From Planctomycetota bacterium (GTDB taxonomy: Bacteria > Planctomycetota > PUPC01 > DSUN01): a stretch of 16,492 nt of DNA. The notes under the pieces were generated by a model, which made no database searches, was not told the origin of the DNA, and saw only the letters and a program-made list of their open reading frames with translations. The translations under genes were made by a program, and so were the position numbers. Below, in pieces: positions 5,007-13,013 of this stretch; the stretch's first letter is position 1; every line of letters begins with the position of its first letter. The DNA is taken from NCBI GenBank assembly GCA_016872875.1, contig VGYW01000170.1, positions 1-16,492 of the forward strand, written 5' to 3'.

Positions 5007-6149
5007 TCAGATCCCCTTCAGGAGCGCCGCGAGGCGGGCGTCCCAGACGAGCTCGCGGACGGCGGCGGCCAACTGGGTGAGCTTGAGGCTCAGACGGGTC
5101 CACTCCGCGGCGTCGAGGGACTTGGCGTTGCGCAAGGTGGCCCGGAACGGCTCGGCCTGGGTGCGAACCACGTCGAGGCGGTCGGCGATCTCCTTGCGGA
5201 AGTCGGCCGCAAGCTCGTTGCCCGCTCCCGCGGCGATGGCCTCCATCTGGGCGTCAAGCTCCTTGAGCGCCTCGCGGGCCATGGCGAGGTAGGCGCGCCC
5301 CGCCTCGCCCTCGCTTGTGAAGATGAGGACCGGCCCGCGGCGTCCCCCCTTGCGGACCTCGGGCGCCAGCTTGCCAAGCATCTCCTCCGTGGGCGAGAGG
5401 ATGAGGTGCCCGAAGCGGGCAACGTCGTGGAAGTTCCCCATCGTCTGCGGCCAGTTCGACCACTCGCGGTCGCCCCCCGCGTAGCGGTCGCGGCAGACGT
5501 TCAGGCCCAGCACCACCCCCGGCTTCGGGGACTCGATGCCGAGGTCCTTCCACGGCACAGCCAGCTCAAGCTCCCAGCCCCTCTCGGCCACCTTCGTCGC
5601 CAGCTTCGTCGCGCTGTTCCACGAAGTATCCTCCTTGTGGGCGTCGAAGAAGGAGCCTGCGAGGTTCACGGCGAGCTGATAGTAGTCGCTGTGGCTGTGC
5701 GTGGGATCAATGAAGACCTCGATGGTCTCGCCTCGGAAGCAGCCGTGGCTGTCGCGTCCCGCGGCAGCGGGGACCAGTTTCGCGGCGTTCGGCTCGTCGC
5801 AGTGGACACCGAGGTAGAGGCAGGCGTCGTCGTAGCCGGCGCGGAACGAGGTCTGGACCTCCATCAGCTTGGGCTTGTTGTAGAGCGTGAAGCCGCTCAC
5901 CAGCGGCGCCTTCGCCCAGCAGGGGTCGTTGAGCTGCCCGTCAACCGCCGGCGCCGCCTCCAGCCGCGGGCAGGGATACACCTTGATCGGATACTCGTCC
6001 GCAAACGCGATCGCGGCGGCAAGAAGGGTCAGGCCCAGCAGGTCGAAGGCAAGCCCTCCTCGTTCCCACGCTCCGCGTGGGAACGCAGGTCTCGGGACGC
6101 TCTGCGTCCACTTCCAGCGACGCGGAGCGTCCGCCACTTGCGCTCCCAC
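5007..6149 (-). CDS. Secreted CBM9-like (carbohydrate-binding family 9-type) protein; start uncertain, N-terminus inside a repeat
   Basis: The native-looking part begins with a hydrophobic stretch, LAFDLLGLTLLAAAIAFA, followed by DEYPIKVYPCP, which looks like the core of a signal peptide. A CBM9-like beta-sandwich follows: AAPAVDGQLNDPCWAKAPLV, FRAGYDDACLYLGVHC, ETIEVFIDP, YYQLAVNLAGSFFD and WELELAVPW. The C-terminal 130 residues look alpha-helical. No ATG, GTG or TTG lies in frame between the hydrophobic stretch and the repeat at 6062. Any usual start, such as GTG at 6149 or 6137, is therefore inside repeat sequence and adds about 30 residues (PRRWKWTQ, FPRGAWERGG). Either the repeat supplied a new start and a basic n-region, or the original 5' end was lost. 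The family usually binds glycans or forms a module of secreted enzymes; no catalytic domain is seen here. It lies downstream of the UroD-like gene on the same strand. Confidence 0.75.
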   Translation of the reverse strand: MGAQVADAPRRWKWTQSVPRPAFPRGAWERGGLAFDLLGLTLLAAAIAFADEYPIKVYPCPRLEAAPAVDGQLNDPCWAKAPLVSGFTLYNKPKLMEVQTSFRAGYDDACLYLGVHCDEPNAAKLVPAAAGRDSHGCFRGETIEVFIDPTHSHSDYYQLAVNLAGSFFDAHKEDTSWNSATKLATKVAERGWELELAVPWKDLGIESPKPGVVLGLNVCRDRYAGGDREWSNWPQTMGNFHDVARFGHLILSPTEEMLGKLAPEVRKGGRRGPVLIFTSEGEAGRAYLAMAREALKELDAQMEAIAAGAGNELAADFRKEIADRLDVVRTQAEPFRATLRNAKSLDAAEWTRLSLKLTQLAAAVRELVWDARLAALLKGI

Positions 6150-6452
6150 GCAGAGCGTGGGAGCGAGAGAGCCTCATGCGATTCCAGGTGTACCCTTCTC
6201 GTTCCCACGCTCCGCGTGGGAACGCAGGTCTCGGGACGCTCTGCGTGCCATTCCAGCGACGCGGAGCGTCCGCCACTTGCGCTCCCACGCAGAGCGTGGG
6301 AGCGAGAGAGCCTCATGCGATTCCAGGTGTACCCTTCTCGTTCCCACGCTCCGCGTGGGAACGCGGGTCTCGGGACGCTCCGCGTCCACTTCCGCCGACG
6401 CGGAGCGTCGGCCACTTGCGCTCCCACGCAGAGCGTGGGAGCGAGAGAGGGA
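6062..6452. repeat. Three tandem 139-bp copies of a REP-like multi-hairpin element
   Basis: Copies start at 6062, 6201 and 6340 (period 139). Each holds three hairpins: GTTCCCACGC/GCGTGGGAAC with loop TCC; GACGCTCTGCGTC paired with GACGCGGAGCGTC; and GCTCCCACGC/GCGTGGGAGC with loop AGA. The first and third are near-inverted copies, so each unit is roughly an inverted repeat overall. Where they differ, a T-A pair in the first becomes a C-G pair in the third, so the stem is kept. The linker CCTCATGCGATTCCAGGTGT is identical after copies 1 and 2, suggesting recent tandem duplication. Copy 1 abuts and enters the CBM9-like reading frame; copy 3 ends 36 bases from the UroD-like stop. No transposase lies nearby. 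Open frames through it (for example FPRSAWER) are by-products of the repeat. Confidence 0.9.
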
Positions 6453-6487
6453 AGGCGCGTCGCTTGAATCGCAATCGCGACTGCGGG

Positions 6488-7604: not shown

Positions 7605-7690
7605 CCACACGGACAGACATGGACAAACACGGACAGGCAGGTATCACCCTCTGGGGCATGTGTCCGTGTCAGTCCGTGTGGGTCCGTGTC
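7605..7690. repeat. Inverted/direct repeat of ACACGGACA units
   Basis: Left arm 7605-7638 has ACACGGACAGACATGGAC-type units; right arm 7660-7690 has the complements (GTCCGTGTCAGTCCGTGTG). The arms can fold into a long imperfect hairpin with a loop of about 20 bases. It begins at the stop of the dehydrogenase gene and fills most of the 118-base gap to the UroD-like start, so it would lie in the mRNA between the two if they are co-transcribed. Confidence 0.75.
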
Positions 7691-8732
7691 ATCCGCCCAC
7701 CCGCACAAGCACTTTCAGTCCAACCTTCTGCTTCATGGTCTCGATCCCGTCGAGTATGCGTTCGAGGGGCACTTCGTGGGTGATCAGCTTATCCGCATCA
7801 ACAGCCCCGCTTTCCAGCAATCGAAGCGCCTCACGCCCCTGGGCGGCGGTGGAGTCGGAGCAACCGACGACGGAGAGCTGGCCGTAGTGGACCACGCGGC
7901 TGTCGAGCGTGATGTCGGAGGCGCCTTTCGGGAGGCTGGCGAAGAGGCTGACGACGCCGCCCTTGGCGGCAAGGTGGACCGATTGCTCCTGGGCCGCGCG
8001 GTCGGGGGCGCACACGATGACGCGCTCGGCCCCGCGGCCGCCCGTGAGGGCCCTCACCCGCGCGACGACATCTTCATCCTCCGAGCAGATGACGGCGTCA
8101 ACGTCGAACTTGCCTGCCAGCTCGCAGCGTGCCTTGGAGCGCTGGACGACGATGACCTTTGCGGCGCCGCGCGCGCGGGTGACCTGGATGTGCATGCAGC
8201 CGAGCGGCCCCGCGCCCACCACCACGACGCTCATCCCCTTGCCGACCTGGGCGATCTCCTGGGCATTGACCACACAGCTCAGCGGCTCCGTGAGCGCCGC
8301 GGCGCGGCTGGAGAGCTTCTGCGGCACCTTCAGCACGTTGCCCATGCGAATGGCGTGGGCGGCAATCGGGAGCAGCTCGGCGAACGCCCCCTGGTAGGCG
8401 GCGCCCACGCACTTGGCCGTGGGGCAGAGGTTGGGCAGGCCGTGCCCGCAAAGGTAGCAGGCCCCGCAGGGCACCGTGGTCGCCATCGTCACGCGGTCGC
8501 CCACGCGAAAGCCCCCTGCTTCGCCACTCGCCTCGATCACCGCCCCTACGAACTCGTGGCCGAGGATCGAGCCTGGCGGGAAGCGCGGGTTCTCGGTGAA
8601 GAAGAGCTTGTAGTCGGTGCCGCAGATGCCGCAGGCCTCCACGCGGGTGAGGAGTCCGCCGGGCTCGGGGCGGGGGTCGGGCACGTCGCGGAGCTCGAAC
8701 CGCCCCGGCCCGCCGTAGACAATCGCTCTCAT
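7689..8732 (-). CDS. Zinc-dependent medium-chain dehydrogenase (sorbitol/threonine dehydrogenase type)
   Basis: 347 residues with the usual MDR layout. The N-terminal GroES-like catalytic domain has catalytic-zinc ligands Cys37 (EACGICGTD) and His59-Glu60 (GHEF). The structural-zinc cysteines are 89, 92, 95 and 103 (CGACYLCGHGLPNLC). The Rossmann NAD(P) domain carries VVVVGAGPLGCMH. Such enzymes oxidise polyols or secondary alcohols to ketones with NAD(P)+. The exact substrate cannot be read from the sequence; L-iditol/sorbitol, threonine and galactitol dehydrogenases all look like this. The ATG at 8732 follows GGGGGTAAGG, a weak ribosome binding site, and a sigma-70-type promoter lies at 8783-8811. 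It is the first gene of a possible dehydrogenase, UroD-like, CBM9-like transcription unit. Confidence 0.93.
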   Translation of the reverse strand: MRAIVYGGPGRFELRDVPDPRPEPGGLLTRVEACGICGTDYKLFFTENPRFPPGSILGHEFVGAVIEASGEAGGFRVGDRVTMATTVPCGACYLCGHGLPNLCPTAKCVGAAYQGAFAELLPIAAHAIRMGNVLKVPQKLSSRAAALTEPLSCVVNAQEIAQVGKGMSVVVVGAGPLGCMHIQVTRARGAAKVIVVQRSKARCELAGKFDVDAVICSEDEDVVARVRALTGGRGAERVIVCAPDRAAQEQSVHLAAKGGVVSLFASLPKGASDITLDSRVVHYGQLSVVGCSDSTAAQGREALRLLESGAVDADKLITHEVPLERILDGIETMKQKVGLKVLVRVGG

Positions 8733-8782
8733 TGCCTTACCCCCAGAGGGGTCGGTCTGGCGAATCGCGAACGCCGGCCGGG

Positions 8783-8811
8783 ATTCTACGCTCCGGCCTC
8801 TCGCGGATCAA
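8783..8811 (-). promoter_or_regulatory. Sigma-70-type promoter for the MDR dehydrogenase
   Basis: On the minus strand, TTGATC (8811-8806) and TAGAAT (8788-8783) are separated by 17 bases. The -10 lies about 50 bases upstream of the dehydrogenase ATG, leaving a leader of about 40 bases. Confidence 0.6.
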
Positions 8812-9039
8812 GGCACAATGCCGCCGGGCCAGCCGTAGTCGGGCGCGCAGGCCTCTACAATCACCCTCCACTCTTCCCCCCAAGGTCGGACGATCGGCGG
8901 CGAGCACGGAGGCACCTGGGTGCGATGGCGGATGCACCCGCCACGGATCGCCTCCGCCGAGTTTGCCGCGGCGGGGCGATGGTTGGCCGCCGCGCCGCGC
9001 CCATCACAGTTCGGCATCAGCGCCTGTCCACGGTGGGGT
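8812..9039. other. Gene-free stretch
   Basis: I see no gene in this stretch between the dehydrogenase promoter and the first large palindrome. A small possible hairpin, GGGTGC/GCACCC, lies near 8929-8950. GC-rich inverted segments around 8950-9000 may be a worn copy of the repeat unit that follows. Open frames here lack homologous-looking content. Confidence 0.4.
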
Positions 9040-9077
9040 ACGATATTCAAACATTCTATAGAATGTTTGAACATCGT
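9040..9077. repeat. AT-rich long palindrome, copy 1
   Basis: A 38-bp palindrome with one mismatch (9045/9072), centred at 9058.5. Each half ends in CAAACATTCTA, so the 22-bp core is only 27% GC in a GC-rich setting. The two positions flanking the core on each side are TT on the left and AA on the right, where copies 2 and 3 have CT and AG, a compensatory change. Confidence 0.93.
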
Positions 9078-9204
9078 TCATCCCCCCCCTGACACCTCGT
9101 CAGGCGCACCTCCGAACCACGAGTACGATGGTCCTGTAGAATGCTAGGCCATTACACGCGGGATCTCACCCCACAATTCAGTCTCAGTGGTTGCACAGGG
9201 CGGG

Positions 9205-9246
9205 GCGCGATGCTCAAACATTCTATAGAATGTTTGAGCATCGCGC
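9205..9246. repeat. AT-rich long palindrome, copy 2
   Basis: A 42-bp perfect palindrome centred at 9225.5, with half-site GCGCGATGCTCAAACATTCT plus A. It shares its 22-bp core with copies 1 and 3. The outer arm GCGATG/CATCGC corresponds to GTGATG/CATCAC in copy 3, a paired C-G to T-A difference. Confidence 0.95.
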
Positions 9247-9382
9247 AGACACCCTCGCCCGATGACTCGCCAGCTACGCCGCGCACCGCCAGGTACGGTG
9301 GGCCAACATCGTGGAGGAGACTGGACTATCACAGGGCAGGCCGCATGACACGCCCGCTTTGCATGTCAGAGTCGTGTGGTGG

Positions 9383-9420
9383 GTGATGCTCAAACATTCT
9401 ATAGAATGTTTGAGCATCAC
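9383..9420. repeat. AT-rich long palindrome, copy 3
   Basis: A 38-bp perfect palindrome centred at 9401.5, 176 bp after copy 2, which is 167 bp after copy 1. It is followed by about 60 bp (GGAGACGCTCTCGCCCGACG and onwards) that resembles the sequence after copy 2 (CAGACACCCTCGCCCGATGA). The repeated unit is therefore longer than the palindrome. Confidence 0.95.
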
Positions 9421-9471
9421 GGAGACGCTCTCGCCCGACGGCTCGCCCGCCGCGCGTGCGGACCACGAGGC

Positions 9472-9508
9472 ACGATGATCTGACATTCCACGAATGTTGG
9501 ACCATCGT
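9472..9508. repeat. Degenerate palindrome, copy 4
   Basis: ACGATGATC, TGACATTC and a CAC loop are followed by GAATGTTGG and ACCATCGT. This gives a stem of up to 17 positions with one clear mismatch and two G-T pairs, centred at 9490. It matches copy 1 in its outer ACGAT/ATCGT and inner ACATTC/GAATGT, so it looks like a diverged member. A weaker one (ATGG...CCAT, containing GTAGAATGC) is centred near 9140, so strong palindrome, about 60-bp spacer, weak palindrome may be the true unit. Confidence 0.7.
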
Positions 9509-9665
9509 TCAGGCTGCGTCGTGGCTACATGGCGGCCTATTGGTTCCCTGGGGCAGTGAGGATTCTTGCAGCGTGGGACGGTGCTGCGGAGGCGAGGGCA
9601 CCGGAAGCGACCAGTGGACTCGCTGGCGCGCAGGCGGGCTATTGCACCCCAGGGCCATTGCGGGC
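9509..9665. other. Gene-free stretch before the nagB promoter
   Basis: No gene, RNA or clear repeat is seen. Sequence between the last palindrome and the promoter is of ordinary composition and could hold operator sites that I cannot recognise. Confidence 0.35.
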
Positions 9666-9693
9666 TTGACTGAATCCCGGCTTTCTGGATAAT
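9666..9693 (+). promoter_or_regulatory. Sigma-70-type promoter for the nagB-pta-ackA cluster
   Basis: TTGACT (9666-9671) and GATAAT (9688-9693) with a 16-base spacer. The leader to the nagB ATG is about 60 bases. It is the only good promoter-like match I found upstream of this five-gene run. Confidence 0.65.
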
Positions 9694-9758
9694 AACGGGC
9701 TAGCCGCCGTTTGGCCGGGCGAGGGGCATCTTCACAGGTTGCCTTGAGGAGACGCAGG

Positions 9759-10502
9759 ATGCGAGTGATCGTGGTGAAGTCGCCGGAGGAGATGGGTCGG
9801 GAGGCGGGCGCCATCGTGGCGGCCGGGATGCGGGCGAAACCGCACTACGTGCTGGGCCTCGCCACCGGCAGCACGCCCATCCCGCTCTACCGCGAGCTGA
9901 TTCGCCTGAACAAGGAGGAGGACCTGGACTTTTCGACGACGGTGAGCTTCAACCTCGACGAGTACATCGGCATCTCGCCCACCCACGACCAGAGCTACCG
10001 CTACTTCATGGACCACGAGCTCTTCAACCACGTGAGCATCGTGAAGGCGAACACCCACGTGCCCGACGGCATGACGGACGACGTGGACACCCACTGCATG
10101 GTCTACGAGGCGATGATCGAGGACGTTGGCGGCATTGATTGCCAGGTGCTGGGCATCGGGCGCAACGGCCACATCGGCTTCAACGAGCCCGGCTCCTCGC
10201 TCGCCTCGCGCACGCGCGCGGTGGACCTGACGGAGGACACGATCCAGGCGAACGCGCGGTTCTTCGCGAGCGTGGACGACGTGCCGAAGCGCGCCATCAC
10301 GATGGGCATCGGCACCATACTTGAGTCCGAGAAGATCATCATGCTCGCCACCGGCGCCAACAAGGCCAACGCCGTCACCGCCGCGCTCGAAGGCCCCGTG
10401 TCGGTCAAGTGCCCCGCCAGCGCGCTTCAACTGCACCCCGACGTGACCTATGTGGTCACCGAGGACGCGGCGGCGGGCCTGACCCTCAAGTTCCGGCGCT
10501 GA
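9759..10502 (+). CDS. nagB: Glucosamine-6-phosphate deaminase
   Basis: The start ATG at 9759 follows TTGAGGAG (9743-9750) by about 8 bases; the frame runs back to 9711 but the extra residues are not family-like. 247 residues, usual for compact NagB enzymes. Motifs: GLATGSTPIPLY (phosphate-binding loop), FNLDEYIG (Asp67, the expected proton-transfer residue) and GIGRNGHIGFNEPGSS (His138, Glu143). Asn136 stands where E. coli has Asp141; Asn is common there in shorter NagB proteins. The enzyme converts glucosamine-6-phosphate to fructose-6-phosphate and ammonia in the cytoplasm. It is first in a same-strand run with pta, ackA, a GlmU-like gene and acp, and a promoter lies just upstream. No nagA is in the window. 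Confidence 0.95.
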   Translation: MRVIVVKSPEEMGREAGAIVAAGMRAKPHYVLGLATGSTPIPLYRELIRLNKEEDLDFSTTVSFNLDEYIGISPTHDQSYRYFMDHELFNHVSIVKANTHVPDGMTDDVDTHCMVYEAMIEDVGGIDCQVLGIGRNGHIGFNEPGSSLASRTRAVDLTEDTIQANARFFASVDDVPKRAITMGIGTILESEKIIMLATGANKANAVTAALEGPVSVKCPASALQLHPDVTYVVTEDAAAGLTLKFRR

Positions 10503-11552: not shown

Positions 11553-11616
11553 CATTCGACTCATTCGACTCATTCGAATCATTCGAATCAATCGACTCAT
11601 TCGAATTCGTCGACTC
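11553..11616. repeat. Tandem CATTCGACT/CATTCGAAT repeats
   Basis: About seven imperfect 9-10-bp units (CATTCGACT, CATTCGAAT, CAATCGACT) fill most of the 91-base gap between pta and ackA. Units with TTCGAA are self-complementary, so weak hairpins are possible. Four of the six gap repeats are inverted; this one is mainly direct. Confidence 0.85.
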
Positions 11617-11634
11617 AAGCAGAGCAGGCACACA

Positions 11635-12876: not shown

Positions 12877-12908
12877 GCGGATTAGTGGATGGATAGGTGG
12901 ATGAATGG

Positions 12909-12973
12909 ATGGGTGGATGAATGGATGAATGAAAGAGGTCCCTTCTCTGGCATTCATCCAATCATCCACCCAT
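12909..12973. repeat. Long hairpin of GGATGAAT units between ackA and the GlmU-like gene
   Basis: A 23-base arm (12909-12931) pairs with 12951-12973 with one mismatch around a 19-base loop. Further GGATGG and CCATCC units extend each side (12886-12990). It lies in the 137-base gap upstream of the ribosome binding site CGGAGG (12997-13002) of the next gene. It has no T-run, so it may act on mRNA processing or translation rather than as a terminator. Confidence 0.85.
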
Positions 12974-13013
12974 CCAACCATCCCCTCCCAGTCTCACGGA
13001 GGCCTGGTCTTCA

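Follow-up and report, generated by a model that had tools for sequence, protein, structure and literature searches.

The palindromes at positions 9040-9508 of the window (the whole 16,492-nt stretch of DNA analysed) were read, with slightly better than even confidence, as solitary, non-coding copies (about 34-42 bp) of a mobile palindrome family that has an ArsR-type winged-helix (wHTH) partner. The presence of the array in the window and its absence from this place in the relative G154, together with copies that bracket a small ArsR-type gene in several distant bacterial groups, suggest a family of mobile palindromes that has a partner protein of its own and no transposase. In relatives, the full unit consists of a palindrome, an ArsR-type winged-helix gene (about 88-100 aa) and a second palindrome, roughly 340 bp in all. 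No description of a palindrome family with an ArsR-type HTH was found in the open-access literature searched. To our knowledge, no answer has been given on how palindromic repeats that insert in frame and lack a known transposase are spread. The features of the locus are as follows.

9040..9077, first palindrome (copy 1), 38 bp with one mismatch between the arms; RNA fold -17.9 kcal/mol, z -6.0
9205..9246, second palindrome (copy 2), 42 bp with fully matched arms; RNA fold -34.5 kcal/mol, z -9.2
9383..9420, third palindrome (copy 3), 38 bp with fully matched arms; RNA fold -27.4 kcal/mol, z -7.6
9476..9508, degenerate fourth palindrome, GATGATCTGACATTC...GAATGTTGGACCATC; RNA fold -18.3 kcal/mol, z -4.3
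9035..9455, plus strand, tandemly related units, each a palindrome with its flanks (78 nt in the alignment), repeating at 167 and 176 bp
7689..8732, minus strand, zinc-dependent alcohol dehydrogenase (ADH) family gene, left neighbour of the array, with synteny in G154
9760..10502, plus strand, nagB-like glucosamine-6-phosphate isomerase gene, right neighbour of the array, with synteny in G154 (start picked by eye; the listed ORF starts at 9711)
9666..9693, plus strand, promoter-like TTGACT-N16-GATAAT upstream of nagB, kept in G154
8816..9655, about 840 bp of extra DNA with the whole array, absent from the G154 gap by alignment (approximate limits, by eye)

The arms of copy 2 (9205-9225/9226-9246) and copy 3 (9383-9401/9402-9420) are perfectly complementary, and those of copy 1 (9040-9058/9059-9077) are 95% complementary, with a single mismatched pair. 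The first-pass annotation had given palindromes of 38, 42 and 38 bp, correct in position and length, but had not mentioned the mismatched pair; the identical 22-bp core that it described is indeed shared, but the core common to copies 1-3 is 24 bp (TCAAACATTCTATAGAATGTTTGA). Its other observations on the array were confirmed. The 27% GC of the named 22-bp core and the paired arm changes (T-A to C-G, C-G to T-A) were both read directly, the spacing put at about 170 bp measured 167 and 176 bp, and the following 60 bp said to be repeated extend to 78 nt, over which copies 2 and 3 agree at 85% and copies 1 and 2 at 65%. The degenerate fourth palindrome folds better than its shuffles and, by eye, is like the palindrome upstream of the HTH paralogue on G154 contig C749. 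Using a 32-position pattern (core and near arms) with up to 3 mismatches, 3 matches were found in the window versus 0 in 200 shuffles. A fifth candidate, within 9118-9165, did not outperform its shuffles in folding (z -0.96) and was excluded from the array. Copies 1-3 are intergenic and carry stops. The Rfam scan gave no family at the gathering score for the array. As the annotation had also held, neither a tRNA nor a CRISPR was found: no tRNA was detected in the array, its three units are separated by related intervening DNA, and no Cas family was present among the ten window proteins scanned.

The array sits in a gap of about 1 kb between the minus-strand zinc ADH gene and nagB, in agreement with its earlier placement in gene-free DNA. 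G154 (Planctomycetota) is a close relative (AckA 88% identical), and the two genomes keep the ADH and nagB-pta-ackA blocks collinear. The aligned ADH and nagB blocks are 997 bp apart in the window versus 147 bp in G154, and the extra DNA, which holds all the palindromes, is upstream of the promoter-like site of nagB conserved in G154. Because the gap differs in this way and the nagB promoter is kept, the array could be an insertion in the window lineage or a deletion in G154; the G154 gap is too diverged from the window for junctions to be placed or a target duplication to be read. In the favoured course of events, the array would have arrived with the extra DNA, leaving the nagB promoter downstream of it unchanged, and would then have been enlarged by local duplication. 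The extra DNA also contains a second GC-rich hairpin repeat at 8948-8993 (ATCGCCTCCGCCGAGTTTGCCGCGGCGGGGCGATGGTTGGC), a related copy of which is found at C131:9259-9301 in G154.

The first-pass annotation had proposed counting the core across the genome and its relatives, and this was answered in part by G154, where dispersed copies were found: 15 matches to the window's 24-bp core when up to 2 mismatches were allowed, in the sole matching genome among 392 Planctomycetota searched. A looser pattern gave 20 palindromes in G154, a count in which C378 and C436, at contig ends and identical in sequence, may be one site. The core matches are mainly TCAATCATTCTATAGAATGATTGA or have that substitution in one arm, with both arms substituted in 9/20 (looser pattern), and the palindromes form local clusters. 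In 16 G154 sites, information beyond about 17 bp per side was at most 1.0 bit, on which a larger conserved unit around the palindrome was rejected; weak flank similarity may exist, and three DNA matches extend about 20-40 bp past a palindrome at 76-79% identity.

A wider scan with the pattern TCNAACATTCNNNNGAATGTTNGA over a genome collection of 84,980 species (by its description) gave at least 118 stretches, most of which share one extended palindrome, AACATTCYAACATTCTNNAGAATGTTRGAATGTT. Since the pattern was derived from the window with 18 bases fixed, those shared letters were set by selection and prove little alone; the window is tied to the wider family because the layout and the partner gene are shared in G154. 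The matches listed are mainly from Patescibacteria, with records also from Verrucomicrobia, Kiritimatiellota, Lentisphaerae, Phycisphaerae and Rickettsiales. Carriers have few copies (1-20 per genome), and presence is patchy (13/192 Patescibacteria genomes); in the complete 680-kb genome G401, 4/7 sites lie within 41 kb, and two of those 4 flank the HTH. Viral carriage was rejected: two viral contigs matched the palindrome pattern, in one common stretch of poor symmetry, and were judged chance matches. One viral contig has the HTH adjoining a TspO gene, with a degenerate palindrome.

Palindrome pairs 310-350 bp apart bracket a small ArsR-type ORF; a four-helix-bundle (S23) partner was considered for these pairs and rejected, the enclosed ORF being an ArsR-type HTH instead. 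In the units read, only a small ArsR-type or profile-matching wHTH ORF lies between the palindromes, with no transposase. The HTH profile (A1) was made from 20 proteins from loci chosen for palindromes, so that closeness within that set is biased; 17/20 members matched PF01022 (HTH_5) at 0.001. The predicted HTH structure gave Foldseek matches to SmtB, CzrA and CadC (ArsR/SmtB fold) with E about 1e-5, and the partner protein is classed as ArsR-type on its HTH_5 domain and predicted ArsR/SmtB fold. In G154, the HTH at C710:1109-1381 (93 aa, ArsR-type winged helix) lies between palindromes at 1039 and 1429. The three HTH paralogues of this genome (C710, C15, C749) are each flanked on both sides by palindromes whose sequences differ between paralogues, and at C749 the two flanking palindromes differ from one another. 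PF01022 is matched by the G406 protein and, in G154, by that of C710; for the proteins of C15 and C749 no Pfam family was hit at 0.01, and both match the HTH profile.

The same palindrome-HTH-palindrome layout was found in genomes outside the profile (G154, G006, G401, G404, G407, G449, G591) and in genomes that fed it (G007, G008, G009, G402, G405). It recurs in Patescibacteria, in one Kiritimatiellota and in one Rickettsiales genome (G406), where the pair brackets a diverged ArsR-type ORF found by Pfam and unlisted by the profile. Among 48 HTH ORFs, a set that takes in weak and near-duplicate members, palindromes are present on both flanks in 19, one of them (L007) via a chance AT-rich palindrome. 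In 14/48, the end of the stop codon falls within 7 bp of the midpoint of the downstream family palindrome, and the upstream palindrome is 51-101 bp ahead of the conserved codons in 27/48, with a sequence that varies between HTH subgroups (by eye). A partner gene bracketed by repeats, with its stop codon inside one of them in 14 cases, offers a concrete protein-DNA pair, and a protein-binding role would fit such a bracketed ArsR-type gene. The wHTH protein would bind the palindrome as a homodimer and may control its own promoter through the upstream copy; the genome of the window organism is predicted to carry a palindrome-HTH-palindrome unit with the CAAACATTCTA half-site. More distant ArsR-type genes (L210, L214, L219) have a different palindrome type 23-76 bp downstream (ATTCGC...GCGAAT in L210).

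In the 192 Patescibacteria genomes (palindrome in 13, HTH in 6, both in 5), the palindrome was present in 5/6 HTH genomes versus 8/186 others (p=3.6e-6; p=4.4e-5 without the centre genome); this draw is fairer than the profile set, with a centre genome chosen for palindromes. The HTH at E<=1e-20 was missing from 8/13 palindrome-bearing genomes of this set, and G571 has the HTH with no palindrome. In G001-G005, with 1-19 palindromes each, no profile match was found near the palindromes and none at all in G004; the best match (2.7e-18, G005) is on a contig other than that of its palindromes. By protein comparison, 29/40 HTH loci have no similar neighbour common to another locus, and 11/40 share one, in six clusters of 2-3 loci, the largest being 3. 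TspO was rejected as a conserved operon partner, since tblastn placed it within 2.5 kb of only 1/40 HTH loci; a second TspO-like neighbour was seen at L005 by protein comparison.

Symmetry between the arms was compared in 127 sites among the matches listed. Arms agree at position 10 in 95% within a site versus 57% between sites, and at position 18 in 52% versus 29%; arms of at least 18 were found in 55/127 sites versus 8.4 expected. Because the arms of one site agree where the family varies, we infer copying via a folded strand, and new copies would then arise through a folded-back single strand; the symmetry would suit this better than loose dimer binding. Position 10 is unmixed in 124/130 sites among the matches listed. 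The origin of solitary copies by recombination between flanking palindromes (solo-LTR model) was disfavoured and rejected because C-type upstream and T-type downstream palindromes predict many chimeras, and only 6/130 of these sites are mixed at position 10. The covariation check proposed earlier had a divided outcome for the window and G154, where related rows may exceed shuffles without structure: the score was above all 500 shuffles, and the observed numbers of pair types, paired cells and cells changed on both sides were reached by 1, 2 and 12 of them, but pairs changed on both sides were not in excess (7 versus a shuffle mean of 5.8, reached by 139/500).

Among the matches listed, 102 sites are solitary, with 32 inside ORFs, 38 in tandem gaps, 16 in convergent gaps, 5 in divergent gaps and 11 at contig edges; ORFs were called with a simple longest-first script, and these gene contexts are approximate. 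ORFs of at least 250 aa hold 24 of the 32 in-ORF solitary sites. Convergent and divergent gaps stand at 16:5 versus 76:94 among 475 background gaps (p=0.004). Of 36 in-ORF sites, 28 were translated (left out were L030, L048, L049, L050, L070, L087, L109 and L117, mostly short or doubtful ORFs), and 22/28 among the matches listed use one common frame (p=1.2e-6), giving xHSNILxNVxM-like peptides.

The palindrome peptide is carried by an aldolase and TspO, both identified by search, and by enzymes that we take, from reading their translations, to be PGK, TrmD, PurL, MnmA and MurC. Homologue alignments covered 24 aldolases and 21 TspO proteins, out of 120 listed in each case, and in both families the loop is shorter in some of the homologues that lack the peptide. 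In the nearest aldolase homologues the loop is filled by other peptides, one homologue at 74% identity has the palindrome peptide, and the loop varies anyway in length and filling. In several of the aldolase homologues P0002-P0009, other repeat-like peptides fill the permissive loop where the palindrome peptide is absent. The TspO insert looks old, inherited and decaying in a clade; therefore some copies are not recent. In the TspO homologue P0126, a second repeat-like peptide, PPSHKATAGQG, lies inside the palindrome-derived peptide as a nested insertion. The peptide is found in the same protein of several lineages, in L036, L099, L106 and L113 (MnmA, by reading; three of these share a loop position, by eye) and in the TspO of L060, L104 and L234; these recurrences represent either hot spots or old inserts.

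The possible main rivals are an operator role and a chromosome-organising role. As an operator array, the palindromes would be sites of an ArsR-type repressor that form a regulon, here for nagB or the ADH gene, and mobility would not be needed. The ArsR/SmtB fold of the partner, the upstream palindrome at 51-101 bp in 27/48 HTH ORFs and its variation by HTH subgroup agree with such a role, as do G154 sites such as L138 and L139, shortly before a long ORF (mechanically called). This reading is nevertheless considered unlikely, at about one chance in five in our judgement, since about 160-620 bp separate the array from a downstream promoter-like site that G154 retains in its absence, divergent gaps hold only 5/59 intergenic solitary sites (among the matches listed) versus 94/475 background gaps, and many solitary sites are inside ORFs, mostly long ones. 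Scattered binding sites of chromosome-organising proteins are known from parS and matS, and the wHTH could likewise be a nucleoid or segregation protein with the palindromes as its sites; in-gene positions would be tolerated and 1-20 copies per genome would be suitable. The clustering in G401, with two sites flanking the HTH, the local clusters in G154 and the patchy presence in Patescibacteria make this improbable.

An element that has no protein partner, either a structured RNA or a 3'-end hairpin, was given still less weight. The hairpins are very stable, and tandem-gap solitary sites (among the matches listed) are a median of 49 bp from the upstream stop versus 101 bp to the downstream start, but no terminator-like site was found in 8600-10000, the HTH gene is bracketed by palindromes and the covariation is mixed. 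Spread of an ordinary REP/REPIN by a RAYT (Y1 transposase), an option that had been raised in the first-pass annotation, is the least probable of the readings and was dropped. Y1 matches (PF01797) are present in 11/18 carriers, with 19 in G154, and CGTC is found at one end only in 6/18 G154 sites and at both ends in 2/18. Set against this, RAYT is disfavoured for the family because 7/18 palindrome-bearing genomes, including the complete genome G401, have no Y1 match, and both GTAG and CGTC are absent from the ends of the window copies. A CGTC end tag is described for one class of palindromic repeats (PMC3733652).

Of the three options put forward earlier (protein-binding array, structured RNA or mobile palindromic element), the mobile element is thus favoured by the dispersed copies, the relative without the array and the in-frame inserts; the wHTH fold, with no evident nuclease, counts against it. 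Mobility and binding are compatible, and both may hold. A tentative extension, to which we assign a rather low probability, is that this is transposase-free mobile DNA, present in several phyla and consisting of an ArsR-type protein and the palindromic sites to which it binds; where a palindrome is folded, the protein would direct replication or repair enzymes of the host to make copies, peptide inserts in essential enzymes among them. More generally, a partner pair of this kind would account for the recurrent peptide inserts in Patescibacteria core enzymes and would place the ArsR fold in an apparent genome-parasite setting.

RAYT genes are flanked by REP palindromes, and the family resembles REP/REPIN in its dispersed short palindromes and palindrome-flanked partner gene, but the partner here is a wHTH rather than a Y1 transposase and the window copies lack GTAG. 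Like MITEs, it has small gene-less inverted repeats beside a larger unit; unlike them, the larger unit is without a transposase and the arms enclose no unique centre. The fold and the palindrome upstream of the gene recall ArsR/SmtB regulators with palindromic operators (SmtB, CzrA, CadC, NolR), whereas a second palindrome stands at the 3' end of the gene (holding the stop codon in 14/48 ORFs), solitary copies are dispersed and also occur within genes, and there is no widely conserved neighbour. Rickettsia palindromic elements (RPEs) are described as short palindromes that have entered unrelated genes in frame (PMC3733652, PMC10969869), with a length of about 150 bp (PMC10969869). The wider family shares the in-frame gene inserts, with the window copies being intergenic; it differs in its palindromes of 34-42 bp, a distinction drawn from description with no RPE sequence aligned, in full units that carry an ArsR-type gene between two palindromes, and in records of several phyla.

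Other repeats were observed in the window. Three 139-bp tandem units at 6054-6470, of which units 2 and 3 are 97% and 83% identical to unit 1, hold GC-rich hairpins (CTCGTTCCCACGCTCCGCGTGGGAACGC), and positions 5840-6002 match G154 C217:310-472 at 94%. A tandem 9-bp repeat (CATTCGACT) is located between pta and ackA at 11553-11617, and TGGA-type short tandem repeats with an inverted counterpart are located at 12886-12983, between ackA and a sugar nucleotidyl transferase gene.
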